Source: a virus. From it: DNA of 37,160 bases. Positions 2,051 through 37,160 of this stretch are shown here, one piece after another. The position numbers were made by a program, and so were the translations under genes. The notes under the pieces were generated by a model that worked only from the letters and a program-made list of their open reading frames with translations, did not search any database and was not told where the DNA came from. The stretch's first letter is position 1. Each line of letters opens with the position of its first letter. The stretch is taken from IMG/VR virus record IMGVR_UViG_3300044712_001182, positions 1-37,160 of that record; one strand, written 5' to 3'.

Positions 2051-3697
2051 ATGTTCGACAAGGCAAAGGCTGAGCGTGCTGTTAAGTTCATGGAGCTGCT
2101 GAAGCTGACCGGTGATTTCCACGGTCAGCCTTTTGCGCTAATGGACTGGCAGCGTGACATCATCTGGAACGTGTACGGCACGATGAATGCGCGCAGTGTT
2201 CGGCAATATCGCTATGTGTATGTGGAGACGGCGAAGAAGAATGCCAAGAGTCAACTGGTAGCAGGTGTTGGAAATAAACATCTGTTCGACAAAGAAGAAC
2301 CCAACGGACAGATCTACTGTGTAGCCGGGGACCGCAACCAGGCAGAGACGCAGATCTATAACCCGCTGGTCGAAATGATCGAGCAGGATAAATCGTTGAT
2401 CAAGCGCGTGAAGATCCGGGACAGCACAAAGCTGATCGAGAACAAAGAGACCGGCACAACGTTGAAGGTGATCAGCGCGGAAGCCTACACCAAGCATGGA
2501 CTTAATGTGTCGTGCTGCATCTTCGATGAACTGCACGCGCAGCCGAATCGTAATTTGTGGGATGTGATGATCAAGGGCGCAGGCCTGGCGCGCCGGCAGC
2601 CGATCTGGTGGGTGATCACGACAGCTGGGGATGATCCGGACCGCGTATCGATCGCATGGGAAGTACACGAAAAAGCAGAGCGCATTTTGCAGGCGCGTGC
2701 TGCAGGTGATAAGGAACACGATCTCGAGACCTGGTATCCGATCATCTACTCGTACACCGGTGAAGATATCTACAACGAAAGCAATTGGAAATGGGCGAAT
2801 CCGTCGCTGGGAATCACGCTTCAGATCGAAGATCTTCGGGACCTGGCGAAAGAAGCGAAGCAGAGCCCGGCAGATGAGCGTTTGTTCCGCTGGTTAAATC
2901 TGTGCCAGTGGGTGAAGACGAAGCTCACATCCTGGCTGCCATTGGACCTGTTCGACAGCACAGTAGGGGAGTGGAGTCGCAGCGATCTGCTCGGCAAAGA
3001 TTGTTACCTGGGCATGGATCTCTCGACGACGACAGATCTGAGCGCGATCTGCCTGGTGTTTCCTCCACAGGAAGGTTTCGACGACTGGCGCGTGATCTGG
3101 GATTGCTGGATCCCGGAAGTGAACATGCAGGTGCGGATCAAGGAAGACAAAGTGCCATACGATAAGTGGGCGGCTGCCGGTTGGATCCAACCCACGGAAG
3201 GCGACGCGATCGACTATGACACTATCGAAGAGCGCATCGACGAAGTGCGAAAGCTATACAACGTGATCGAGCTGGATGGAGATAAATCGTTTGCCACGAT
3301 GTTGTGGCAGCATCTTGAAAAGAAAAAACTGACTTGCGTGGATATCCCGCAGCAGTATGCGACTCTGACGGACCCGATCAATCAGACCGAGGTTCTGCTG
3401 AAGACAAAGCGCAAAGTGACCGATGATGGAAAAGAGATCGAGCTGCCCATGCTGACCCATGAAGCTCACCCAGTGGCGCGCTGGTGTTTTGGCAACGCAT
3501 CCATCGTGAAGAACGGTAACGAGCAAAAGAAACTGGTGAAAGAGCATAAGGGCAGGGGACTGGACCGCACGAAGCGCATCGATCTGATCATCGCCTGGGT
3601 GTGTGCCATGGCGAGAGCGAAGTTCTACAAGTCAAACGAGAGCGTTTATAAAAGGCGCGGACTTCGTGTGGTGGGCAAACGCGAAGAAAGCGAGTGA
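2051..3697 (+). CDS. Terminase large subunit, HK97-type (Terminase_1)
   Basis: 548 residues, a usual size for this family. The ATPase domain has the adenine-binding MDWQRDI (31-37), a deviant Walker A VETAKKNAKS (about 58-67), and Walker B CCIFDE followed by LHAQ (155-163). The C-terminal RNase H-like nuclease starts with YLGMDLSTTTDLSAI (around residue 320), whose Asp binds metal, and continues with ELDGDKS and a late RIDLIIAW segment. It is the motor and headful/cos nuclease that fills the prohead. Its stop codon overlaps the first 38-bp inverted-repeat site (3697-3734). Confidence 0.95.
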   Translation: MFDKAKAERAVKFMELLKLTGDFHGQPFALMDWQRDIIWNVYGTMNARSVRQYRYVYVETAKKNAKSQLVAGVGNKHLFDKEEPNGQIYCVAGDRNQAETQIYNPLVEMIEQDKSLIKRVKIRDSTKLIENKETGTTLKVISAEAYTKHGLNVSCCIFDELHAQPNRNLWDVMIKGAGLARRQPIWWVITTAGDDPDRVSIAWEVHEKAERILQARAAGDKEHDLETWYPIIYSYTGEDIYNESNWKWANPSLGITLQIEDLRDLAKEAKQSPADERLFRWLNLCQWVKTKLTSWLPLDLFDSTVGEWSRSDLLGKDCYLGMDLSTTTDLSAICLVFPPQEGFDDWRVIWDCWIPEVNMQVRIKEDKVPYDKWAAAGWIQPTEGDAIDYDTIEERIDEVRKLYNVIELDGDKSFATMLWQHLEKKKLTCVDIPQQYATLTDPINQTEVLLKTKRKVTDDGKEIELPMLTHEAHPVARWCFGNASIVKNGNEQKKLVKEHKGRGLDRTKRIDLIIAWVCAMARAKFYKSNESVYKRRGLRVVGKREESE

Positions 3698-4054: not shown

Positions 4055-4186
4055 ATCTTGTCGGATGATATCTTCCGGAAGAAATACAAGATTGAATATT
4101 TTTCTTGTATGCCTGGCGCCGACGATCGAGAAACAAGATGCGGAAATTGTCTTGTTTCTCCTGGGAGCTGGGTGACCATACAAGAA
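4055..4186. repeat. Tandem array of three 38-bp two-half-site elements, 47-bp period
   Basis: Copies at 4055-4092 (ATCTTGT/ACAAGAT), 4102-4139 (TTCTTGT/ACAAGAT) and 4149-4186 (GTCTTGT/ACAAGAA), each with a 24-bp spacer and starting exactly 47 bp apart. Spacers differ; the first contains the palindrome TCTTCCGGAAGA and is nearly identical to the spacer of the distant copy at 24451. The array ends 9 bp before the -35 box of a consensus promoter (4196), so a bound protein could control the RNA made from it. An origin, partition or packaging role is also possible. Confidence 0.78.
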
Positions 4187-6376: not shown

Positions 6377-6856
6377 ATGTTGGCGTATCAGGTTGGACTC
6401 CCGTTTTGGCTTGCATCGGCAAATGCTTTTCAATCCCCGCTTGTAGGCGGAACGAATGCGCGTCGTTTCATGCCGCAGTGGGGCATTGCGGCATCGTTGG
6501 GCGCCAATGTGGATGTGCTGAGCGTTTGGAAGATCCAAACAGCGCCGACCGCCACGCTGAAGCTGGCATTGTATTCCGTTGCAAATGCCACTACCGGTGT
6601 GGCAAAGGTCAATCCATCCTGGGCAGCGGGAGCTGTAGGAACGAACTTCGATACAGTTTCCCTGTCTGCAGAGGGAACCACCACGGTCACATGGGCCGCT
6701 GGAAACGATTTCGACATCCTGGAAACCAAGATCACGCTGGATGCCGCGACAGCTCCCACAGCCGGGCAGTTATTGTTCTTGTTGATCCGATTCGAGACCA
6801 CGTCGTGGACGCTGGCTCAAAAAAGTTATTGGTCGCATGTTCTATTGGATGAGTAA
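6377..6856 (+). CDS. Probable virion (fibre or head decoration) protein
   Basis: 159 residues, beta-rich, with repeated TxTL/TTVTW patterns and an N-terminal Gly/Phe-rich stretch (LPFWLASANAFQSP). It is not recognised by motif, but composition (Thr, Ala, Gly; few charged residues) matches the structural genes on either side. GAGGACCC precedes the ATG and the stop overlaps the next start by one base (TAATG). Probably part of the same fibre assembly as its neighbours. Confidence 0.55.
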   Translation: MLAYQVGLPFWLASANAFQSPLVGGTNARRFMPQWGIAASLGANVDVLSVWKIQTAPTATLKLALYSVANATTGVAKVNPSWAAGAVGTNFDTVSLSAEGTTTVTWAAGNDFDILETKITLDAATAPTAGQLLFLLIRFETTSWTLAQKSYWSHVLLDE

Positions 6857-8424
6857 TGTCTTCGCGTCTTGATGCCAGCGGAGACAAGCTCTCCGCATCC
6901 ACCAATCTGCCAGCTTCGCCGCGCAGTACCACGCTGTGTGGCTTGTTTTACATGGTGACAGATCGGAATGATTACACCTGCCCGATCAACTTAAGCGCCA
7001 GTGTTGATGATGCGATCTTTGTCGAAACTGGCACCAATGGCACCACGTTGGACGGCTATGTGTACGCCGGTGGAGCCTTCACCAAAACAGCCAGCATGTT
7101 ATCCATCACAGTGGGTCGCTGGTATTTCATGGCGATCACCGTAAGCTCTGCGGGCGCTGCCAATTTTTATTATGCAGATCTGACCACTGCCACGGCACTG
7201 ACAAAGGTATCCATGAGCGGAACGGTGGGGACCTGGACTCCCACCCTGATCTGTTTTGGCGATAGTGTTTTCACCGCCGAATGGTGGAACGGTCGCATGG
7301 CAGGTCTGAGAGTCTGGTCCACTGAATTGACCCAGGCACAGTTGGAAGGGGAGATGTGGTTCACACTGGCGCAGCATACGACCAGCCTCAATCGCAGCGT
7401 TCCCAGTTTTGCAGGATCAGGCGAACGTGCCCGAGACTACAGCGGCAATGGATACAACCTGACAGAGGGTGGAACGCTGAGCGATGAAAATGATCCGCCG
7501 GTGCTCTGGACCAATACGGTCACGCCTGTGTATGTCGACGTGGCGACGACCAACACGTATGCACTGGTGGCAGCGTTGGATGGGACCAGCAGTCTGACAG
7601 CCGCAGGAATCAATACTTTCACGCCTGCCTCTGCCCTGGATGGCACGAGCACACTCACCAGCGTTGGGAAAAATACATTCGCGATCTCTGCGACTTTGGC
7701 AGGTACAAGCGCACTCACGGTCGCAGGGAAGAACACATTTACACCTGCGTCCACATTAGCTGGAACCAGCGCATTGACCGTAGTCGGAAAGAACACTTTC
7801 ACGCCTGCATCTGCCCTGGACGGCACGAGCGCACTCACCAGCGTTGGAAAAAATACATTCGCGATCTCGGCTGCAGTCGATGGATCAAGCACTCTAACCG
7901 CTTCCGGAAAAAATACCTTCACGCCTGTTTCCACACTGGCCGGAACAAGCGCACTGACCGCCGATATCACCACCAGCGGCACGAACACATATAACCTGGT
8001 CTCCACACTGGCAGGCACAAGCACTCTGACCGGCGTTGGAAAAAATACATTCGCAGGATCTACCACTCTCGCCGGATCAAGCGCCCTGACCGCAGTCGGA
8101 AAGAACACGTTCACGCCTGCATCGACTCTGACAGGAACCAGTCAGTTGACGGCCGTCGGAAAGAGCACGTTCGACATAGCTTCTGCGCTATCTGGAACGA
8201 GCACGCTGACCGCATCGATCCTGGATCACTCGATCTTTGATCTACAGTCCACACTGAGTGGAGAGTCTGCGCTGAGCGCGGAACTGGTGAACGAGTTCAT
8301 CCTGGCTGCATCGATGGCAGGCAGCGCGGAATTGACCGTCACTTTATCAGCGCGTGAGCCTATTGGACCATTTTTGCGGGAATACATTCGCGACCGCACG
8401 CGGAGGATCAGAAACCAGCAATGA
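6856..8424 (+). CDS. LamG/concanavalin-like fibre protein with 22-residue stalk repeats
   Basis: 522 residues in two parts. Residues about 10-190 form a LamG/concanavalin-like jelly roll (RWYFMAITVSSAGAANFYYAD; ERARDYSGNGYNLTEGG), typical of glycan-binding domains. Residues about 225-495 are some 12 copies of a roughly 22-residue repeat, core GTSxLTxxGKNTF followed by xxxxSxLx, which probably forms a repetitive beta stalk. The end is basic (YIRDRTRRIRNQQ). The repeats are visible in the DNA from about 7540 to 8340, so copy number may vary by recombination. The likely role is cell-surface recognition. Confidence 0.72.
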   Translation: MSSRLDASGDKLSASTNLPASPRSTTLCGLFYMVTDRNDYTCPINLSASVDDAIFVETGTNGTTLDGYVYAGGAFTKTASMLSITVGRWYFMAITVSSAGAANFYYADLTTATALTKVSMSGTVGTWTPTLICFGDSVFTAEWWNGRMAGLRVWSTELTQAQLEGEMWFTLAQHTTSLNRSVPSFAGSGERARDYSGNGYNLTEGGTLSDENDPPVLWTNTVTPVYVDVATTNTYALVAALDGTSSLTAAGINTFTPASALDGTSTLTSVGKNTFAISATLAGTSALTVAGKNTFTPASTLAGTSALTVVGKNTFTPASALDGTSALTSVGKNTFAISAAVDGSSTLTASGKNTFTPVSTLAGTSALTADITTSGTNTYNLVSTLAGTSTLTGVGKNTFAGSTTLAGSSALTAVGKNTFTPASTLTGTSQLTAVGKSTFDIASALSGTSTLTASILDHSIFDLQSTLSGESALSAELVNEFILAASMAGSAELTVTLSAREPIGPFLREYIRDRTRRIRNQQ

Positions 8425-25484: not shown

Positions 25485-26345
25485 TTATCCACTTCCCTTT
25501 TTGGTGTCTGGTCCACTGATCAGCCGGTCAACCGGCAGATATTGGCGGACCTGTTCGAGGCGGAGTGTGCGCGTGTAGCGTTTGATCATTTCGGGAGATT
25601 CCCACCTCCCCATTTCCATCAGTGTGCGGTCAGATGCTCCATTGAGCCAGCCCATGACCGCCATGGAGCGGCGTAGATCGTGCGGGGATAAGGCAATTCC
25701 GATACTACGCCCCCACTGTTTCACGATCATGTACAGCCCTTCAGGCGTGAGCCCTTTTCCGGTTTTGATATGCGTGAATAAATAGCCCTGACCATCGGCA
25801 ATGCGGCGGTAGTGCAGCCAGCGGTCGATATTGCCAGCAGTGCCAATCCCGAAGATGGCGCTCTTCCACTGCCCACCTTTGACGATGACCTGTAGGGTGC
25901 GTCGATCCAGATCGGTATCGGCGAGCTGCAGACGGCATAGTTCTGATTCGCGCAGTCCGGTATCCAGGGCGAGAGAGCAGATCGCCAGATCGCGTGCACC
26001 TTTCGGGATGTAGGTGTCGAACGAGGCAAGCAGCCTCATGGCGGTCTCTTCGTCGAGAGCACGCTGCACTTTTCCTTGAAGGCGTTTTATCTTGGCAGAT
26101 CTCGCCGGATGAGATTGACCATAGGTCCAGGTTAGATATCTTTTGACAGATGCCAGCGCTACACACTGGCGCGCATTCCCCCACCCGCTTTGTTTTATCA
26201 AACGAATTAACTCCGCCGCCGTGAGGCTGGCGGGATCCTCCACCTGGTCGAGAATTGCCGGGATGACATCTCGATAGGTGCGTTTGGTCGACTCAGCATA
26301 CGCGTGAGCCGATGCAAGGAAATTTTCCAACTGTTCGTCTTTCAT
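25485..26345 (-). CDS. int: Phage tyrosine integrase
   Basis: 286 residues from the ATG at 26345, chosen for GGGAGATC upstream over a start 30 codons earlier. The N-terminal SAM-like domain (about 1-90) is followed by the catalytic domain: Arg132 in DTGLRESEL, Lys156 in VIVKGG, His222 and Arg225 in PHDLRRS, Trp248 in GRWES (His/Trp position) and the nucleophile Tyr257 in IKRYTRT. All needed residues are present. It faces away from the early operon and lies 77 bp from the tRNA-fragment attP, so it should integrate the genome into tRNA-Gly(CCC). It is separate from the integron integrase at 33407. Confidence 0.93.
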   Translation of the reverse strand: MKDEQLENFLASAHAYAESTKRTYRDVIPAILDQVEDPASLTAAELIRLIKQSGWGNARQCVALASVKRYLTWTYGQSHPARSAKIKRLQGKVQRALDEETAMRLLASFDTYIPKGARDLAICSLALDTGLRESELCRLQLADTDLDRRTLQVIVKGGQWKSAIFGIGTAGNIDRWLHYRRIADGQGYLFTHIKTGKGLTPEGLYMIVKQWGRSIGIALSPHDLRRSMAVMGWLNGASDRTLMEMGRWESPEMIKRYTRTLRLEQVRQYLPVDRLISGPDTKKGSG

Positions 26346-26480
26346 AACTGATCTCCCTTTGCTGGAATGGGTGGATTTCTCCACCAGGAAATTGGGTCCC
26401 TTGGCAGTGACATGAGCTGTGATGTGGACATCCAAACGGCATTACCAGCGCTGGATATGCCCCCAGAGCTGCAGTGGTGT

Positions 26481-27159: not shown

Positions 27160-27341
27160 GAATCTGCTTTTGAAAGGAGGTGATGCCTGAACGATGATCG
27201 ATAAAAAAAGTCAGCGATGTTGCAACATCGCTGACAGGTTGGGCACGTGGAGAGTTACCAACAGACCGGCGTGCCCAGCAATATTATACACAAAAAACGA
27301 GAGTTACCAAATAAAAGAGTTACCAAACAAGGAGAGTTACC
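27160..27341 (+). promoter_or_regulatory. Early operon intergenic control region
   Basis: 182 bp with a very strong AAAGGAGGTGATG (27173-27185) that precedes no clear gene, a 26-bp perfect palindrome (27210-27235) and four of the six GAGTTACCA-type motifs (27249-27342). A frame of 51 codons (27194-27349) fits behind the strong ribosome site but reads the repeats in different frames, so it is doubtful. This looks like a control region for the operon downstream. Confidence 0.6.
27210..27235. promoter_or_regulatory. Perfect 26-bp palindrome
   Basis: GTCAGCGATGTTG (27210-27222) followed at once by its reverse complement CAACATCGCTGAC. Seven A bases precede it on the plus strand (27203-27209), so on the minus strand it is a hairpin followed by TTTTTTT, an efficient terminator for leftward transcription. 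It could equally be an operator. No leftward gene lies just to its right, which makes a terminator-only explanation puzzling. Confidence 0.7.
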
Positions 27342-27342
27342 A
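27249..27342 (+). repeat. Clustered GAGAGTTACCA motifs
   Basis: Copies at 27249-27260 (GGAGAGTTACCA), 27299-27309 (GAGAGTTACCA), 27315-27325 (AAGAGTTACCA) and 27331-27342 (GGAGAGTTACCA, joined to the ATG at 27342). Further exact copies of the 12-mer are at 26592 and 27742, each beside a start codon. The repeated ribosome-binding-site-like motif suggests a shared translational control signal. Confidence 0.7.
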
Positions 27343-27539: not shown

Positions 27540-27760
27540 CAAACACAGATCGTGTTCTTCAGGCGATTCGAGATTGTTGGCGGGAGTTCACAGTCCCGCC
27601 AACAATTCGTGATGTTCAAAAACGCACAGGGATCGGATCCACTTCGGTGGTGAGGTACCACTACATGCGACTGGAAAAATGCGGGGCGATCAAACGAATA
27701 AAGGGCAAGCCGGTCCCTGTCGAAATCAGCCATTTGATAAAGGAGAGTTACCAATCATGA
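27536..27760 (+). CDS. LexA-type winged-helix transcription regulator
   Basis: 74 residues. TDRVLQAIRDCWREFTVPPTIRDVQKRTGIGSTSVVRYHYMRLEKCGAIKRIKGKPVPVEI follows the LexA DNA-binding domain pattern: first helix, PPTIRDV, the recognition helix GSTSVVRYHYMRLE, and the KGAI-like wing. It lacks the LexA peptidase domain, so it is a stand-alone binder. A LexA-like reader may connect the early operon to the host SOS response or antagonise LexA; which is not known. Its 3' end contains a GGAGAGTTACCA motif. Confidence 0.78.
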   Translation: MTNTDRVLQAIRDCWREFTVPPTIRDVQKRTGIGSTSVVRYHYMRLEKCGAIKRIKGKPVPVEISHLIKESYQS

Positions 27761-28452: not shown

Positions 28453-28834
28453 GGAAGCTCACCCAGGGCATGTGGATGCAGAGCATTATCCAGAAGGATG
28501 GCACGAGGAAGAGAGCGTTCTGCCTCTCCTGCCTGCAGGACGGCAAGGATTGGATCGGCGGAGATCTCTGCGAGCACTTTCAGTCAGTGGAGACGGTCGG
28601 TCCGACGGGCGCGCTCGATCGCCCTTTGCATTCAACGGTCGACGCCGACGAAAGGTAGAGACCGAGTGCGAATGGTGCCAGGAGAAGTTCCTGACCAGCC
28701 AGCCTGAGCACGCCAGATATTGCAGTGATGCGCACAGGTTGTATGCCTGGCGCGAACGCAGGAAGGCGCTGCAGATGAGCCCTGGAATACCCATAAATGA
28801 CGAATTTGTAACGGCACGTGCCGTTACAAATTGA
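28412..28834 (+). CDS. Zinc-ribbon protein in overlapping frame, start uncertain
   Basis: The last 60 residues (from about 28657) look real: CEWCQEKFLTSQPEHARYCSDAHRLYAWRERRK is a C-x2-C...H..C-type zinc ribbon found in small phage and plasmid proteins. The first 80 residues, in the frame opposite the gene at 28449, look like out-of-frame sequence (Arg/Ser/Pro rich, no pattern) and no start codon with a ribosome site lies before the ribbon. Either translation begins upstream at ATG 28412 or GTG near 28472, or a -1 shift from the 28449 gene joins the two, or a sequencing error split one gene. Boundaries are low confidence; the ribbon itself is better supported. Confidence 0.45.
   Translation: MRLNSRKPLFSPNEEAHPGHVDAEHYPEGWHEEESVLPLLPAGRQGLDRRRSLRALSVSGDGRSDGRARSPFAFNGRRRRKVETECEWCQEKFLTSQPEHARYCSDAHRLYAWRERRKALQMSPGIPINDEFVTARAVTN
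28449..28658 (+). CDS. Small Cys-rich early protein
   Basis: 69 residues starting in the stop of the membrane gene (ATGA). KRAFCLSCLQDGKDWIGGDLCEHFQS (about 22-48, given in part: FCLSC, then DLCEH) gives a C-x2-C-x(15)-C-x-H zinc-binding pattern. A second reading frame (28412-28834) overlaps it and encodes another zinc-ribbon; see that entry. Function unknown. Confidence 0.6.
   Translation: MRKLTQGMWMQSIIQKDGTRKRAFCLSCLQDGKDWIGGDLCEHFQSVETVGPTGALDRPLHSTVDADER
28803..28832. promoter_or_regulatory. Perfect 30-bp palindrome before the replication gene
   Basis: AATTTGTAACGGCAC (28803-28817) is followed directly by GTGCCGTTACAAATT. It overlaps the last codons of the zinc-ribbon frame and sits 70 bp upstream of the initiator start. 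It lacks a T tract, so an operator or cruciform site is more likely than a terminator. Confidence 0.7.
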
Positions 28835-28901: not shown

Positions 28902-30092
28902 ATGCAAAGTCATTTTGATAATCCCCTTAGTTTATTACGACAGTTAAAAGGGGCGCCGATATCAGTTTTGCTGGCGTGCTACTGGGCGGGCCAGCCAGTT
29001 TCTCACAAATGGCTGGTCCAGCAGACCGGATACAGCAGCTATGCGGTCACTCAAGCACTTGGATATCTTACAGAGTGCCAATTCCTGACACATGTCACGG
29101 GGGGATGGATGATCACCGATGGCGCGAAACAGCTTCCACTGATGGCAGCGCTCCCAAGTGGGGAAGAGCAGGAAAGCGATGGACAAAGAATCGAGGAAAA
29201 CGCGAATCTTGTCGGAAGATTCGAGGCTACCTCGATTCCTGAAACAAGATTCGAGGATTCCTCGAATCTTGTATTGGAAAATCGAGGAATCCTCGAATCT
29301 TGTCTTAAGCTAGAAGAAGAAGCTAATAGCTTAATTAATCTAACTACTGTTTCTTCTAGCTGCACCGAAAATCGAGGAATCCTCGAATCTGCTGGACCAG
29401 AAGAGAAACTCCCTTCGGTAGCGAAGATACTGGCTGAGACATCAGACCTTTTTGGGAGACCTGGAGTTGTTGCATCTCAGCTGCCGATCGATAAACTCTC
29501 GCCTACGCACGTTTTTGCCTGGCTCGCCTGTGCTTATGATCAGTGGGTAGATGGTGGCAGAAAAGGCAGGATCCAATCTCCGGGAGCGTATGTATATAAA
29601 AAGCTGGCATCAGCTCCTTTCGAAATGCCAGCGCTGGAATACCAGCATGCCTGGATCAACATCCTGCCGGAAGATTGGCTAGAGCGATTCGGCTTGATCG
29701 ATTACACGTGCGAGTGTGGCGAGGTTCGAAAGCTGCGCGCAGAATACGAGCGCCATTTGGCAACGCATGAAGACAGATCTGAATCCAGGGTGGAAGGTGA
29801 GCCAGCGAAAAGCATTGTGACAAAAAACAATTCAGTCGATCCCAAGGCGCTCAAGGTGTGGGAGTCTGTTGTCGATCAACTGCGAATGCATTTGCCGCGC
29901 GCCTCGTTCGATACCTGGGTGCAGGATGCGGAGCCGGTGAACTTCGACGGATCCGTTTTGAGCATCGGCGCTCGTAACGCCTACGCCAGGGATTGGCTGC
30001 AGAACCGGTTATCTGACCTGGTGAACAAACTATTGACGGAGATCATGAGCGGCGTGTCCGTTTCGTTCGTGGTCTACGCGGAGGAAACATGA
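28902..30092 (+). CDS. Replication initiator protein (wHTH plus DnaA_N-like domain) with internal origin
   Basis: 396 residues in three parts. N-terminal winged helix (LRQLKGAPISVLLACYWAGQPVSHKWLVQQTGYSSYAVTQALGYLTECQFL). A central linker encoded by iterons (ENRGILES appears twice) with low-complexity SLINLTTVSSS. A C-terminal region (about 315-396) with WESVVDQLRMHLPRASFDTWVQDAEPVNFDGSVLSIGARNAYARDWLQNRLSDL, which matches the DnaA_N domain that recruits DnaB helicase. This suggests a lambda O-like initiator that brings the host helicase to the origin within its own gene. AAAGGAG precedes the ATG. No phage helicase or polymerase is visible. Confidence 0.78.
   Translation: MQSHFDNPLSLLRQLKGAPISVLLACYWAGQPVSHKWLVQQTGYSSYAVTQALGYLTECQFLTHVTGGWMITDGAKQLPLMAALPSGEEQESDGQRIEENANLVGRFEATSIPETRFEDSSNLVLENRGILESCLKLEEEANSLINLTTVSSSCTENRGILESAGPEEKLPSVAKILAETSDLFGRPGVVASQLPIDKLSPTHVFAWLACAYDQWVDGGRKGRIQSPGAYVYKKLASAPFEMPALEYQHAWINILPEDWLERFGLIDYTCECGEVRKLRAEYERHLATHEDRSESRVEGEPAKSIVTKNNSVDPKALKVWESVVDQLRMHLPRASFDTWVQDAEPVNFDGSVLSIGARNAYARDWLQNRLSDLVNKLLTEIMSGVSVSFVVYAEET
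29191..29393. other. Candidate replication origin: 30-31 bp period iterons plus AT-rich element
   Basis: A 22-bp unit, TCGAGGA..CCTCGAATCTTGT, occurs at 29191 (degenerate), 29221 (degenerate), 29251, 29282 and 29372 (last bases changed). Starts are 30, 30, 31 and 90 bp apart, about three helical turns. Between the last two copies is an AT-rich stretch flanked by 11-bp inverted repeats AGCTAGAAGAA (29308-29318) and TTCTTCTAGCT (29351-29361), containing TTAATTAA: a plausible unwinding element. A 29-bp palindrome (29244-29272) has 14-bp arms. As in lambda O, the iterons lie inside the initiator gene. The trailing ATCTTGT is shared with the 38-bp sites. Confidence 0.75.
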
Positions 30093-30809: not shown

Positions 30810-31167
30810 AGATCGCTGGACGACGACGGTCACGATCAAGGATCCGGCGCGCAGGGCATTGTGGATCGATGTGTTTCCGGATGCGAAACTCCCGATCAAG
30901 AACATTATTCCCAGCATGGCAGGTATCGACGGTGAACAGCGCCTGGTCTATTGGCTGGATGTGGATGTTTTAGCAAAGGGACAAATTGACGACATCGTTT
31001 CGACGATCGCAAAGCGCTTTGACCTTGATCCTGTGCAGGTACGGATGGATATGCAGCATGGCGTTCCGATCCTGGCGAGTAATACGATCGCCGAATCAAC
31101 ATCGATGCGTGCGCTGCCGGAAATCGATCCTATCCATATCGACGAGTGGGAGGAAGAGCTGCCATGA
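30799..31167 (+). CDS. Hypothetical early protein
   Basis: 122 residues, acidic: RWTTTVTIKDPARRALWIDVFPDAKLPIKNIIPSMAGIDGEQRLVYWLDVDVLAKGQIDDIV. The alternation of strands and helices suggests a compact domain. No family recognised. It overlaps the start of the next gene and the end of the previous one by 11 bases. Confidence 0.58.
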   Translation: MNTKDRWTTTVTIKDPARRALWIDVFPDAKLPIKNIIPSMAGIDGEQRLVYWLDVDVLAKGQIDDIVSTIAKRFDLDPVQVRMDMQHGVPILASNTIAESTSMRALPEIDPIHIDEWEEELP

Positions 31168-31541
31168 GTGACGTGAAGGTGAATGGCGCAGTCTATCGTC
31201 CGCAGTTTCGGAAGTGTGGAAATCCGCGCTGCAAGTGTGTGAAAGGGCAGGGGCACGGACCCTATTGGTACAAGTTCGATGGCAACGGTCCAGGGAAATA
31301 TGTGGGGAAGGAGCTTCCGGACTCGATCAAACAATATGAGCAGGCGCTCAAAGCGAACCTGAAGAAGATCCACGAGGTGAAGAAGCAGATCGAGAAACGA
31401 CGCGATGATGCATTCTCGCTCTACTCGCAATCGGCTGCCGATGTGCGGACGCTCGAAGCGCTGGTGTCCAGGGACCACGTGGATCCGAAGGTGCTGGAGA
31501 AACTTGGTTTCGGCGCGCTGGCGCTGAAAGGAGATCTGTGA
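31164..31541 (+). CDS. DUF6788-like zinc-binding protein
   Basis: 125 residues from ATG 31164. RKCGNPRCKCVKGQGHGPYWYKFDGNGPGKYV is the DUF6788-type signature (C-x3-C-x-C followed by GHGPYWY), usually annotated as uncharacterised and often found beside transposons and phages. A long charged helix (EQALKANLKKIHEVKKQIEKRRDDAFSLY) follows. It may be a nucleic-acid-binding accessory. Confidence 0.68.
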   Translation: MSDVKVNGAVYRPQFRKCGNPRCKCVKGQGHGPYWYKFDGNGPGKYVGKELPDSIKQYEQALKANLKKIHEVKKQIEKRRDDAFSLYSQSAADVRTLEALVSRDHVDPKVLEKLGFGALALKGDL

Positions 31542-33172: not shown

Positions 33173-33410
33173 AAAGTTTGACCCTGCAACGTTGCAGAAG
33201 GGGCACAGTGCATCTTTTGAAGTACGCAACCAGCAGACCGGTTATGGAGAGCATCACTATTTTTATCGTGATGCTGATGGCGAGTTATTCACTACGGTCC
33301 ATCATCGTCTGGATGTATGTGTGCAGGAACGCAAGGAATGGCAGAAGTTGAAGCGCGCGAAGGTGGAAGAGTTGAAGCAGTTGGATTTCACGAAGGAGAG
33401 TGCACAATGA
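33153..33410 (+). CDS. Hypothetical protein coupled to intI
   Basis: 85 residues, charged ([47 protein letters not shown], then a Lys/Glu helix). The stop overlaps the ATG of the integron integrase, so ribosomes terminating here can start intI. It is therefore the last phage gene before the integron. Confidence 0.62.
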
Positions 33411-34381
33411 ATCTATTTGAAACATTTCGCGATGCGTTGCGCACAAAGCACTATGCTTATCGCACTGAGAAAACATATCTGCACTGGGTCAAACAATATG
33501 TTCGTTTTGTGAAACCGGTCCATCCACGGGATGCTGGCATTGATGGCGTGAAACGCTTTGCCACTTATCTCGCTGTAGATCGAAATGTAAGTTTCACAAC
33601 GCAAAACCAGGCAATTGCAGCGTTACAGTTTTTATATAAACTCTATGGCATTGAATTAGGCGATCTAGATATTGTTCGTGCAAGAAAATCCACGCATTTG
33701 CCGGTTGTGCTCAATCACGAAGAAGTAATACGGTTGCTCGAACAACTGAACGGGCAGTATCGCATTATGGGACAGTTGATGTATGGCGCCGGGTTGCGAT
33801 TGCTGGAATGTCTGCGTCTACGTGTGAAGGATGTTGATTTTGAAAGCCGGACGATCACGCTGCGTGACACAAAAAGCAATCGAGACCGAGTAACGTGTCT
33901 ACCTGAGTCAGTGGTGCCTGCACTGATATTGCACATTGCCAAGGTCAAGGCTCAACACACTATTGATCTTGCTGACGGTCGTGGAGAAGTGGAATTGCCA
34001 TTTGCGTTGGATCGAAAATACCCAAATGCTCCGTTTGCCTGGGAATGGCAATATGTCTTCCCTGCCGGGCAGTTTTCAAAAGATCCATACAGTGGTCATA
34101 TTCGCAGGCATCATGTCTTCGAGACGAGTGTACAGAAGGCAGTCAAGTTGGCAGCTAAGAAGGCTCGCATCCATAAGCATGTTGGTCCGCACACGTTTCG
34201 TCATTCGTTTGCTACCAGGCTCTTAGAGCTTGGCTATAACATCCGAACTATACAGGAGTTGCTTGGACATAAAGATGTGAGAACAACAATGATCTATACC
34301 CACGTGACGATGAAGGGGAGCGGAGTTGTTAGTCCGCTTGACAGTGGAAGGTCCGTTATTAAACAGCACGTTGCTGTTTAA
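33407..34381 (+). CDS. intI: Integron integrase
   Basis: 324 residues, the usual IntI length. Catalytic residues of tyrosine recombinases are all present: Arg131 (GAGLRLLE), Lys156, His262 and Arg265 ([13 protein letters not shown]), His288 (LLGHKD) and Tyr297 (MIYTHV). The IntI-specific insertion is visible at about 199-220: [22 protein letters not shown], required for recognising single-stranded attC. It starts within the stop of the upstream phage gene. It faces the same way as the cassettes, the opposite of clinical integrons. GC is visibly lower than in the phage genes, so it was probably acquired. Confidence 0.95.
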
Positions 34382-34394
34382 TCATGAGTTCGGC
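34358..34394 (+). other. attI: attI-like recombination site after intI
   Basis: The core GTTCGGC at 34388-34394 begins 7 bases after the intI stop and precedes cassette 1. Its upstream side lacks the attC arms, as attI should. An 11-bp perfect inverted repeat, ATTAAACAGCA (34358-34368) and TGCTGTTTAAT (34372-34382) with loop CGT, spans the intI stop and may be an integrase-binding or structural part of attI. The sequence after the core (GTTCGGCGGCATCTTGC) also follows the attC core at 34966, as expected for cassette junctions. Confidence 0.72.
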
Positions 34395-34415
34395 GGCATC
34401 TTGCAAAGGAGTAAC

Positions 34416-34685
34416 ATGTCCAAAAATAAAATTGTTCAAGCCGCAACGATGAAGCTCGAAGTCGAGTTGCGTTGCTCGGAGTGTAATAGTCCGTTGATCG
34501 TCAATAATACTTGGTCAGATGTTCATGGCTTATCTTGCTACGTCGAGCCATGCGAAGAATGTATGAGCCGCCGAACACAGCGTGCACCTGACGTTTGCCC
34601 TGTGTGCAATGGAAAAGGCTCTATTCGTGTCGGTGTTTATTCTGAAAACTGCGAAGCCTGCAATGGAACGGGCAAACGCAGGTAA
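34416..34685 (+). CDS. Cassette 1: DnaJ-type zinc-finger protein
   Basis: 89 residues from ATG 34416 with AAAGGAG upstream. A CSEC...CEEC pair (about 23-53) and CPVCNGKGSIRV...CEACNGTGKRR (about 65-89), the CxxCxGxG repeats of DnaJ-type zinc fingers. The C-terminal zinc repeats lie inside the attC. Product role unknown; a chaperone-like or nucleic-acid-binding protein is suggested. Its frame reads RTQRAPD across the attC R''/L'' boxes. Confidence 0.78.
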   Translation: MSKNKIVQAATMKLEVELRCSECNSPLIVNNTWSDVHGLSCYVEPCEECMSRRTQRAPDVCPVCNGKGSIRVGVYSENCEACNGTGKRR

Positions 34686-34700
34686 CGCAAACCGTTGGAG
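34570..34700 (+). other. attC: attC site of cassette 1
   Basis: R'' box GCCGAAC (34570-34576) and core GTTGGAG (34694-34700). The arms pair with unpaired extra bases: GCGT-GC-ACCTG-A-CGTTTGC near the left against GCAAACGCAGGTAACGC near the right. R'' is the exact complement of the cassette's own 5' boundary GTTCGGC (34388). Length 131 bp. Confidence 0.85.
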
Positions 34701-34705
34701 CGACA

Positions 34706-34957
34706 ATGAGTATTCAAAAAGCTGTTTGGGTAAGGTGCGATGAGTGTGGTGAGGCTGGATTTGCTAGTCACACAGCTACACAAGCCCGAAGGGAAGCGCG
34801 TGAAAATGGTTGGGTGTTTCGTAATGGCAAAGATTATTGCAAAAGTTGCGCTCCAACAAAGCGTGCACCTGACGCTTGTACGTGTGGCTTGAAAATCGAC
34901 CCTGTTGGTTGGAATCGTCACACAAAGGACTGTGCAGCGTACCGCCCGCGCAGGTAA
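34706..34957 (+). CDS. Cassette 2: Cys-rich small protein
   Basis: 83 residues. CDECGEAGFASHTATQARREARENGWVF and CKSC...CTCGLKIDPVGWNRHTKDC give two zinc-binding pairs, as in zinc-ribbon proteins. GGAG within the attC core region (GTTGGAGCGACA) acts as ribosome site. Product function unknown; the pattern suggests nucleic-acid binding. Confidence 0.72.
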   Translation: MSIQKAVWVRCDECGEAGFASHTATQARREARENGWVFRNGKDYCKSCAPTKRAPDACTCGLKIDPVGWNRHTKDCAAYRPRR

Positions 34958-34972
34958 CGCAAGCCGTTCGGC
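34851..34972 (+). other. attC: attC site of cassette 2
   Basis: R'' CTCCAAC (34851-34857), core GTTCGGC (34966-34972). R'' complements the cassette's 5' boundary GTTGGAG. Arms GCGT-GC-ACCTG-A-CGC and GCGCAGGTAACGC pair with extrahelical bases. Length 122 bp. Confidence 0.85.
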
Positions 34973-34994
34973 GGCATCTTGCAAAGGAGCACTT

Positions 34995-35414
34995 ATGCCA
35001 AAAAAGAAAACAGATGTTGAAATTAAAGAGTTTTTTCGCGTTTGTGGTGAAAGTATTATGCTTCCAAGAAATCACGGTAAAACCCAACACCGAAAAATCG
35101 TATATGGTGCAATAGTGAAAAACGATCTTGATGAGGTAATTCGATTGCTTGTGAAGTTTGGTGATGCGGCGTTGTTTTCAGATGCGCAAATTGGCAAGGC
35201 GGCAAACCAACTCACAGAGTTAGAGTTTGAATTATTGCAACTCCGTCAAGAAAATATAGAGTTGAAAGCGCGTCTTGACACTAATCGCGCTCAAGTCAAG
35301 GCTATGGCAACCGAGAAACGCCGCCGAACACAGCGTGCACTGGACGGGGCGAAGCGCACGGCTCAAAAAGGTTCTATTAGTGGCAAGCGTTCTGGTAGGT
35401 CGCCCCGCCAGTAA
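34995..35414 (+). CDS. Cassette 3: coiled-coil basic protein
   Basis: 139 residues from ATG 34995 (GGAG upstream). DVEIKEFFRVCGESIMLPRNHGKTQHRKIVYGAIVKNDLDEVIRLL is helical; then a coiled coil (QLTELEFELLQLRQENIELKARL) and a very basic tail RRRTQRALDGAKRTAQKGSISGKRSG encoded in attC. Not recognised. Basic tail and coiled coil would suit DNA binding. Confidence 0.72.
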   Translation: MPKKKTDVEIKEFFRVCGESIMLPRNHGKTQHRKIVYGAIVKNDLDEVIRLLVKFGDAALFSDAQIGKAANQLTELEFELLQLRQENIELKARLDTNRAQVKAMATEKRRRTQRALDGAKRTAQKGSISGKRSGRSPRQ

Positions 35415-35429
35415 CGCCAACCGTTAGGC
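35333..35429 (+). other. attC: attC site of cassette 3
   Basis: R'' GCCGAAC (35333-35339), core GTTAGGC (35423-35429). R'' matches the 5' boundary GTTCGGC (34966). Arms GCGT-GC-ACTGG-A-CGGGGCG and CGCCCCGCCAGTAACGCC pair. Length 97 bp. Confidence 0.85.
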
Positions 35430-35434
35430 TTCTA

Positions 35435-36085
35435 ATGCAAAAGTATCGAACGATTGTGATTGACCCGCCCTGGGAGTATCCCGAAGGTTTCCCAGCGTGG
35501 AACGATAACGGTGAGCGTAAGCCTTTGGATTATCCGACGATGACACTTGAAAGAATAGCCGCCTTGCCAATTTACGATTTACTTGAACACGAAGGTTATA
35601 TTTTCCTTTGGGTTACTAATCGCTATCTGGAGCAGGGTTTCAAAGTTCTTCGGGCTTGGCGATGTGTGCCGCGTCAAACGCTTACATGGTGCAAGCCTCC
35701 GCAGGGTTCAGGGCTTGGCGGTATGTTTGCCACAACCACAGAGTTTGTTATTGTTGGTCAGCGCATTGGTGAAAACAGCCATGCACGCGGAAAAAGAACG
35801 CAGGGCAAAATCAATACTTCTTGGTTCGAGTGGAAGCGCGGCGAACATAGCCAAAAGCCCGAAGCGTTCCAAGACCTTGTAGAGCAGGTTGCGCCGCCGC
35901 CGTATCTCGAAATGTTTGCACGCCGTCACCGCTTGGGCTGGCACGTCTGGGGCAATGAAGTAAACAGTGATGTTGAAATCCCTTTACGAAGCCTAACACC
36001 GCGTGAACCCGACAAGGGGGATTCGTCCCCTTTAGCGGCATTATCCACCCTCGGAGCGGATACCGCTCATGGGGCTTTATCGTAG
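35435..36085 (+). CDS. Cassette 4: MT-A70-type adenine methyltransferase
   Basis: 216 residues. VIDPPWEYP (DPPW at residues 10-13) is the catalytic motif of MT-A70 adenine-N6 methyltransferases. The SAM side follows: LPIYDLLEHEGYIFLWVTNRYLEQGFKVLRAWRCV, then the target-side TEFVIVGQRIGE..HARG and a final HSQKPEAFQDLVEQVAPPPYLEMFARRHRLGWHVWGNEV (the KP..F..lie..s...lElFaR pattern). Probable DNA modification that could protect the phage or host DNA from restriction. The last part (TPREPDKGDSS...) lies in the attC. Confidence 0.9.
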   Translation: MQKYRTIVIDPPWEYPEGFPAWNDNGERKPLDYPTMTLERIAALPIYDLLEHEGYIFLWVTNRYLEQGFKVLRAWRCVPRQTLTWCKPPQGSGLGGMFATTTEFVIVGQRIGENSHARGKRTQGKINTSWFEWKRGEHSQKPEAFQDLVEQVAPPPYLEMFARRHRLGWHVWGNEVNSDVEIPLRSLTPREPDKGDSSPLAALSTLGADTAHGALS

Positions 36086-36118
36086 CCCGCCCCTTGCGGG
36101 TTACGCAAACCGTTCGGC
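35991..36118 (+). other. attC: attC site of cassette 4
   Basis: R'' GCCTAAC (35991-35997), core GTTCGGC (36112-36118). R'' complements the 5' boundary GTTAGGC (35423). Arms ACCGCGTGAACCCGACAAGGGG and CCCCTTGCGGGTTACGC pair with extra bases on the left arm. Length 128 bp. Confidence 0.85.
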
Positions 36119-36142
36119 GGACACGTCGAAGAAGGAAGTCGC

Positions 36143-36430
36143 ATGGAAATAAAAGTTACTCTCACAAATAGCACAGCCGAGCAATTTATCTTTATTGTCA
36201 CAGTTGACGGTAAAGAGGTTCAAAATTGTTCTATCGGTAAATTAGTAAATCCTGAGCATTTTGATTGGGCTTGCAACATGAGCGCGGCGGCTGTTCATGG
36301 TCATTTGCAAACGATGAATCCCGTAAAACGTAAAGTCCGCCGAACAAAGCGTGCAGCCGACGTGCGGAAGGCTGGGCGCAAAAAGGTAACATCCAAATCG
36401 AATGTTATGGTTAGCCCCGCACGCGGCTAA
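36143..36430 (+). CDS. Cassette 5: small hypothetical protein
   Basis: 95 residues. IKVTLTNSTAEQFIFIVTVDGKEVQNCSIGKLVNPEHFDWACNMSAAAVHGHLQTM is mixed, followed by a basic tail KRKVRRTKRAADVRKAGRKKVTSKSN from the attC. Not recognised. AAGGAAG lies before the ATG. Confidence 0.68.
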   Translation: MEIKVTLTNSTAEQFIFIVTVDGKEVQNCSIGKLVNPEHFDWACNMSAAAVHGHLQTMNPVKRKVRRTKRAADVRKAGRKKVTSKSNVMVSPARG

Positions 36431-36445
36431 CGCAAGCCGTTGGGT
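36339..36445 (+). other. attC: attC site of cassette 5
   Basis: R'' GCCGAAC (36339-36345), core GTTGGGT (36439-36445). R'' complements the 5' boundary GTTCGGC (36112). Arms GCGT-GC-AGCCG-A-CGTGCGG and CCGCACGCGGCTAACGC pair. Length 107 bp. Confidence 0.85.
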
Positions 36446-36468
36446 TGCTCTTTGCAAAATGAGGTCAC

Positions 36469-36993
36469 ATGACAAACGCATATAAAACAACAGCCGTCCC
36501 GATTGCACGGTCACAAGAAGCAATCCGCAAGTTGCTCATAAACTTTGGCGTTCGTGGTATCCAGTTCTCAGAAGATTTTGAGAGCGGCGATATAAATGTG
36601 CGCTTTGCGAAAATGATAAATAACAATCTTCGCACAGTCTCAGTTTCAATGCACATCCCCGAACCGCCAAAGCCAAAGCGTCGAACTTCACGCGGCACTA
36701 AAAGCGCGAGTGATCGTAAAGAACAAATGGCGCGGGCTACTTATCGCGCTCTGCATGATTGGCTCAAAGCTCAATTTGTAGCCGTTGAATATGGGCTACT
36801 CACTTTTGAAGATGTATTCTTATCTCACTTTGAATGGATACTTGAAGGTGGTGTGGTTTCAACGATTGGCAAAATTATCAAGCCGCGCCTTGAAACTCGC
36901 TCAGAGTTTTTGCTTGAAGTCGGTGAGCGCAACCCAACAAAGCGTGAACCCGACAATGGCAACGTGTCCGAAGGTGAAGTAGTTTCTGAATAA
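36469..36993 (+). CDS. Cassette 6: hypothetical protein
   Basis: 174 residues. An alpha/beta N-terminus (SQEAIRKLLINFGVRGIQFSEDFESGDINVRFAKMINNNLRTVSVSMHIP) then a basic hinge (KPKRRTSRGTKSASDRKEQM) and a helical C-terminus (WLKAQFVAVEYGLLTFEDVFLSHFEWILEGG). Tail NPTKREPDNGNVSEGEVVSE is from the attC. No family recognised. GAGGTCAC precedes the ATG. Confidence 0.7.
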   Translation: MTNAYKTTAVPIARSQEAIRKLLINFGVRGIQFSEDFESGDINVRFAKMINNNLRTVSVSMHIPEPPKPKRRTSRGTKSASDRKEQMARATYRALHDWLKAQFVAVEYGLLTFEDVFLSHFEWILEGGVVSTIGKIIKPRLETRSEFLLEVGERNPTKREPDNGNVSEGEVVSE

Positions 36994-37042
36994 TTTTAGT
37001 GGCTTGCGTTCTCGCCATTGCGGGTTACGCAAGCCGTTAGAC
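36932..37042 (+). other. attC: attC site of cassette 6
   Basis: R'' ACCCAAC (36932-36938), core GTTAGAC (37036-37042, repeated at 3-9). R'' complements the 5' boundary GTTGGGT (36439). Arms GCGTGAACCCGACAATGGC and GCCATTGCGGGTTACGC pair with two extra bases on the left arm. Length 111 bp. Confidence 0.85.
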
Positions 37043-37160
37043 GGACAGATCAAATTCCTGTGTAACCTTTCGCGCGTGTAGTGCCGTCATGCAATGGAGT
37101 TCAAACTTGTTCACCGAACCTTTAACATTAAAAAACATCAAGATCAATATGCCGAAAAAT
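37034..37160. repeat. Terminal overlap of a circular contig, right copy
   Basis: Identical to 1-127. It contains the attC core and the first 72 bases of the last cassette gene (start at 37089), which is complete at the left end of the window (56-430). Confidence 0.93.

Follow-up and report, generated by a model that had tools for sequence, protein, structure and literature searches.

The hinge-coding part of a replication initiator gene (28902–30092) in the IMG/VR virus record IMGVR_UViG_3300044712_001182 very probably contains a phage replication origin that is organized like the one of phage lambda. The stretch of DNA that we analyzed, here called the window, comprises positions 1 to 37,160 of this record, i.e. 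37,160 nucleotides, and coordinates refer to it unless another record is named. That the origin resides inside the initiator gene had already been suggested in a first-pass annotation of the window, and judged from sequence this suggestion is well supported because of gene synteny, the domain structure of the encoded protein and the recurrence of the same layout in nine relatives that have diverged and carry other repeat sequences.

The open reading frame 28902–30092 harbors five TCGAGG repeats starting at 29191, 29221, 29251, 29282 and 29372, whose positions, with steps of 30, 30, 31 and 90 bp, agree exactly with the array of 30–31-bp period that had been annotated at 29191–29372. Each of these iterons is a full or degenerate palindrome about TCGAGGA/TCCTCGA. 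An AT-rich segment separates iterons 4 and 5 and is bounded by an inverted repeat, the 11-bp arms of which are exact, as annotated. With both arms included this framed segment spans 54 bp and is 69% AT, a value reached in only 262 of the 37,106 54-bp intervals of the stretch. The elements of the proposed origin are as follows:

29189–29212, plus strand: iteron 1, degenerate palindrome AATCGAGGAAAACGCGAATCTTGT
29219–29240, plus strand: iteron 2, ATTCGAGGCTACCTCGATTCCT
29244–29272, plus strand: iteron 3, perfect 29-bp palindrome ACAAGATTCGAGGATTCCTCGAATCTTGT
29280–29303, plus strand: iteron 4, AATCGAGGAATCCTCGAATCTTGT
29308–29318, plus strand: left arm of the inverted repeat, exact 11 bp, AGCTAGAAGAA
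29319–29350, no strand assigned: AT-rich loop (72% AT), proposed duplex-unwinding element
29351–29361, plus strand: right arm of the inverted repeat, exact 11 bp, TTCTTCTAGCT
29370–29390, plus strand: iteron 5, past the AT-rich element, AATCGAGGAATCCTCGAATCT

We compared these repeats with a null of 2000 synonymous-codon shuffles of the initiator gene, in which the protein and its codon usage are kept. The longest direct repeat of the gene (24 nt) was not matched in any of the 2000 shuffles, the maximum being 21, while the palindrome with 14-bp arms was matched in one shuffle and the 11-bp inverted repeat of the framed segment in three. As the steps of 30 and 31 bp shift the reading frame, the iterons are not protein repeats and selection has acted at the DNA level. 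This speaks against the explanation that we deal with low-complexity repeats of the protein hinge, or with a hairpin or attenuator in the initiator mRNA, instead of an origin. The arms do frequently code for acidic and serine runs, and hairpins could form in RNA as well, but the repeats are lost under synonymous shuffling, the arms of two relatives (L110 and L113) code for Thr and Val runs instead, and several palindromes flank the hairpin in the manner of protein binding sites, so that this explanation appears improbable. It is more improbable still that the repeats are operators for self-repression of the initiator or for timing of transcription, with the origin being located elsewhere. While palindromes near gene starts commonly are operators, these repeats lie 290–490 bp into the gene, promoter-like sites in their vicinity are no commoner than expected by chance, and the repeats regularly accompany a framed AT-rich element. 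A search of viral contigs for the exact core pattern TCGAGGAATCCTCGA returned 71 single matches and no array.

The protein encoded by the gene is divided into the following parts:

28902–30092, plus strand: replication initiator gene, 396 amino acids (PF11638 DnaA_N, family alignment, AlphaFold2 model)
28923–29117, plus strand: winged helix-turn-helix, residues 8–72, proposed iteron-binding domain (predicted local distance difference test score, pLDDT, ~90; order H-H-H-E-E)
29157–29399, plus strand: disordered hinge, residues 86–166, whose coding stretch holds the proposed origin (pLDDT <50)
29418–29684, plus strand: helical middle domain, residues 173–261 (alignment and model)
29700–29771, plus strand: C2H2-like zinc-finger motif, residues ~267–290 (weak zf-C2H2 matches and profile matches to C2H2 fingers)
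29841–30080, plus strand: DnaA domain I, residues 314–393, proposed helicase-recruiting module (Pfam, Foldseek)

The proposed origin thus coincides with the stretch encoding the disordered hinge, within which all of the repeats lie. The C-terminal DnaA domain I matches PF11638 with 46.6 bits (curated cut-off 24.6), shares its fold with 4tps (Foldseek template modelling score 0.85 on the target, root-mean-square deviation 1.3) and is present in all seven aligned family members. Its closest kin is the DnaA of Anaerolineales, to which it is at most 59% identical, and the domain was apparently acquired from the host. The Pfam scan of the initiator gave no match to AAA+ or to Bac_DnaA, the DnaA-box-binding domain IV. 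Matches of the remaining parts were weaker: the winged helix gave weak MarR/HTH family matches in several members and the zinc finger weak zf-C2H2 matches in 3–4 of the 7 aligned ones, and for the middle domain neither a family match nor a clear Foldseek match was obtained. The family phrog_26369 (replication initiation protein) matches 7/7 aligned members, in the window protein solely over residues 318–391 in the DnaA domain I part, while phrog_678 ('replication initiation O-like') matches one of the seven (E 0.008) and not the window protein.

A query with the single initiator sequence retrieved no relatives from viral or genome contigs; these were instead reached through terminase neighbours and alignment searches. 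The terminase neighbours led to G003/L110, where the initiator precedes the same downstream gene as in the window. The winged helix of L110 is 32% identical to that of the window protein, and at the same place the gene contains a triplet inverted repeat framed by two palindromes, which lie 92 bp apart and differ in sequence from those of the window. Alignment searches added L113, L115, L116, L117, L118, L120, L138, L207 and L208 as well as the shorter L119 and L121. In nine of these relatives (L110, L113, L115, L116, L117, L120, L138, L207 and L208) the hinge-coding stretch is arranged in the same way: one or more palindromic repeats come first, then an inverted repeat whose loop is AT-rich (66–95% AT). 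In L110, L113, L117, L120 and L207 an additional palindrome is located past the hairpin, like in the window. The iteron sequences are lineage-specific and differ among the nine. The hairpin arms are made of different triplets in different phages (GAAGAAG, GATGATG, GAGGAGG, TACTACT, TAGTAGTAGG), yet are still complementary. For most relatives the palindrome, the hairpin or both exceed the synonymous-shuffle null; L207 and L208 were assessed by eye and with a repeat finder, outside the shuffle test. Folding z-scores of the predicted single-stranded DNA hairpins range from -2.65 in the window to -6.25 in L120. Moreover, iteron half-site similarity tracks winged-helix similarity (Mantel r 0.56, P 0.0008; with the closest pair removed r 0.36, P 0.014), which fits a winged helix that reads the iterons. 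Of 396 genomes searched across the class, just 2 contained the initiator, indicating that it is phage-borne, and the plasmid and phage collections searched gave matches at the DnaA_N level only. Some observations weigh against an origin of this kind: the GC skew, proposed earlier as a check, makes no turn near 29300, nearly all genes here being on one strand; L118 has neither clear iterons nor a hairpin; and L115 is marginal in the shuffle test.

Upstream of the initiator gene, a perfect 30-bp palindrome, AATTTGTAACGGCACGTGCCGTTACAAATT, is found at 28803–28832, of which 23 bp are kept at L110 1878–1899, 5′ of the G003 initiator. When sought in viral contigs, it was found at those two initiators only.

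From these features we infer iteron binding, melting, helicase recruitment and a replication start at this site. Initiator dimers would bind the five palindromic iterons through the N-terminal winged helix, and the resulting nucleoprotein complex would open the AT-rich segment 29319–29350 framed by the 11-bp inverted repeat. By means of the C-terminal DnaA domain I, DnaB (the host helicase) or its loader may then be recruited to the opened strands. No helicase or loader was found among the phage genes scanned, hence those of the host are probably used. Binding of DnaB by DnaA domain I has been demonstrated in E. coli and in no other species (PMC5448010), and helicase recruitment is for this reason put forward as a prediction.

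When compared to known systems, the arrangement most resembles the origin of lambda, where dimers of O bind palindromic iterons within gene O and the adjoining AT-rich stretch opens (PMC5043065, PMC7466680). We checked the lambda sequence and found four iterons, then the AT-rich stretch, whose first 41 bp are 78% AT, and after it a short inverted repeat. Both origins thus occupy the central part of the initiator gene, with palindromic iterons (in lambda ATCCCTCAAAACGAGGGA) that precede an AT-rich stretch. In the window, however, this stretch lies inside the inverted repeat, whereas the short inverted repeat of lambda comes after it, and several members of the family have one or more iterons past the AT-rich element. 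The C-terminal part differs as well, being DnaA domain I in the window protein and a P-binding domain in lambda O; no P homologue was identified. With chromosomal DnaA the initiator shares domain I, which its C-terminal 80 residues match in sequence and fold, but it is devoid of the AAA+ and DnaA-box-binding domains and is a winged-helix protein in which domain I is C-terminal. Iteron plasmid origins of the P1, R6K and RK2 type likewise have repeated initiator sites beside an AT-rich region, whereas the repeats of the window are palindromes within the initiator gene.

The first-pass annotation had further stated that the iterons end in a box, ATCTTGT, which is shared with sites dispersed over the genome. 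This applies to three of the five iterons (boxes at 29206, 29266 and 29297), while iteron 2 has ATTCCTG and iteron 5 ATCTGCT; the motif does occur in both systems. A fourth origin box is inverted (ACAAGAT at 29244) and completes the perfect palindrome 29244–29272. In the entire window ATCTTGT is enriched, with 21 occurrences observed against 5.1 expected. The 31-bp step, considered as a geometry common to iterons and dispersed sites, was rejected: it is seen once, the steps in relatives vary (21, 33, 54, 63, 75 and 92 bp), and the spacer of the dispersed sites is always 24.

These dispersed sites have the form ATCTTGT-N24-ACAAGAT, of which the window contains four perfect copies and nine at ≤2 mismatches, with this one spacing only. 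Counts of TCTTGT-N24-ACAAGA are 8 in the window, 11 in G431, 11 in G035, 9 in G432, 4 in G433, 3 in G439 and 2 in G006, and a reversed control pattern gave 0 in the same records. The 36-bp element (window, G431, G035, G432, G433, G439, G006 and G279:C27; L348–L354, L010) is mostly intergenic and often in tandem. Its spacer is composed of two halves of free sequence, each with a short palindrome; a 6-bp palindrome is present in 37 of 45 spacers against 15.6 expected, and the palindrome centres cluster at spacer positions 6 and 18. It looks like an element that has so far been undescribed. Sites and associated genes are located as follows:

4055–4092, no strand assigned: example of the dispersed element; others at 3697, 4102, 4149, 23615, 23659, 24451, 24928 and 31714
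31146–31541, plus strand: gene of DUF6788 (PF20586), located outside the origin and a candidate for the factor acting at the dispersed sites
DUF6788 genes elsewhere: L348 6781–7155; L350 4947–5321 (minus strand); L352 6988–7377 (minus strand); L354 3938–4480

A DUF6788 gene is present in five of seven site-bearing records and in none of 15 site-free ones (Fisher P 8e-4 over 22 records, to be read as indicative, the records being a non-random sample), and it often adjoins copies of the element. The two site-bearing records without the gene are 9–12-kb fragments, and 7 of the 15 site-free records were judged from part of the record. This co-occurrence makes DUF6788, and not the initiator, the candidate factor, and the dispersed sites most likely belong to a separate DUF6788-linked system. 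In the literature searched no paper names DUF6788. A host-encoded factor was rejected, as 298 Anaerolineae genomes are at background with the sole exception of G279:C27. The latter (L354) is a 17.2-kb circular element of an Anaerolineae genome that has the dispersed element in six copies and also a DUF6788-like gene.

It had been proposed that a single protein, perhaps the initiator, couples replication to gene control by binding boxes that are directly oriented at the origin and inverted at the dispersed sites. Besides the shared ATCTTGT, the phage L208 lends itself to this proposal, since it alone besides the window has TCTTGT boxes in the origin (three TCTTGT and two ACAAGA) and also has dispersed sites (11 copies), and since both phages possess an iteron flanked by TCTTGT-N31/32-ACAAGA. 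One L208 iteron, ACAAGAATCGTCCTGAGAACGATTCTTGT, has the same outer arms as iteron 3 of the window. Given an identity of 48% between the two winged helices (over 54 residues), the arms may be shared for no other reason than that both initiators recognize this sequence. Against a single protein, G035, G432 and G439 hold 11, 9 and 3 sites that agree in half-sites and spacing, whereas the box is absent from the iterons of their initiators (GACTCCGATTwAATCGGAGTC; GGGTGACAGCCTGTCACC). Furthermore, half-sites and N24 spacing are constant though the winged helices diverge, the box forms the outer flank and not the core of the palindrome and is missing from two of the five iterons, and the dispersed sites track DUF6788. 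We therefore consider it unlikely that the initiator alone serves both systems.

A regulatory tie between origin and dispersed sites is nevertheless possible in the window phage and L208. The DUF6788-linked factor might also dock on the origin boxes of these two phages and restrain or time replication, a proposal that we regard as tentative. Its distribution among site-bearing and site-free records is compatible with such a role, and boxes in both orientations occur in just these two origins, with one ACAAGA (L110) elsewhere in the family. However, no pair of origin boxes makes up an N24 element, the spacings being 31–32 inward and 17 outward where the element needs an inward pair at exactly 24; L113 and L119 have the factor and a boxless origin, and DNA-binding activity is not known for DUF6788. 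Equally speculative is the broader idea that Anaerolineales phages might use an undescribed genome-wide control, in which a DUF6788 protein would act on elements of 36 bp, where TCTTGT and ACAAGA enclose two 12-bp modules with a short palindrome of arbitrary sequence at the centre of each, and half-sites would have been added to the iterons of the window phage and L208, coupling replication to the dispersed sites.

The window is the genome of a temperate phage. Its first 127 bases equal its last 127, corresponding to a circular genome of ~37.0 kb, and it encodes terminase, portal and head genes together with two integrases:

25485–26435: phage integrase
33317–34381: integron integrase (TIGR02249, 395 bits against a cut-off of 265)

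The host is probably a bacterium of the Anaerolineales (Chloroflexota), as the C-terminal part of the initiator is nearest to DnaA domain I of this order. The integrase at 33317 opens an integron (33317–37055) with attC-like repeats and small cassettes; integrons are already known from phages (PMC9892861). Further repeats of the window include 60-bp (20-amino-acid) tandem repeats at 7552–8163 inside the open reading frame 6856–8424, which probably encodes a fibre or structural repeat protein, and three ~17-bp tandem direct repeats at 27291–27342 with the end GAGTTACCA, a fourth copy of which follows 400 bp downstream (27735–27753).

Taken as a proposal, the region offers a concrete origin and initiator, open to testing, for Anaerolineales phages. 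Members of this bacterial group are largely uncultured, and the literature searched contains no description of a phage origin for it. It would follow the lambda plan, with the origin in the initiator hinge, and combine it with another helicase-recruiting part, DnaA domain I. The complementary change across unrelated arms suggests that framing of the AT-rich segment aids origin opening. Finally, the dispersed element, whose spacer varies freely but remains palindromic, may represent a new type of site with a regulatory or structural role in phages.
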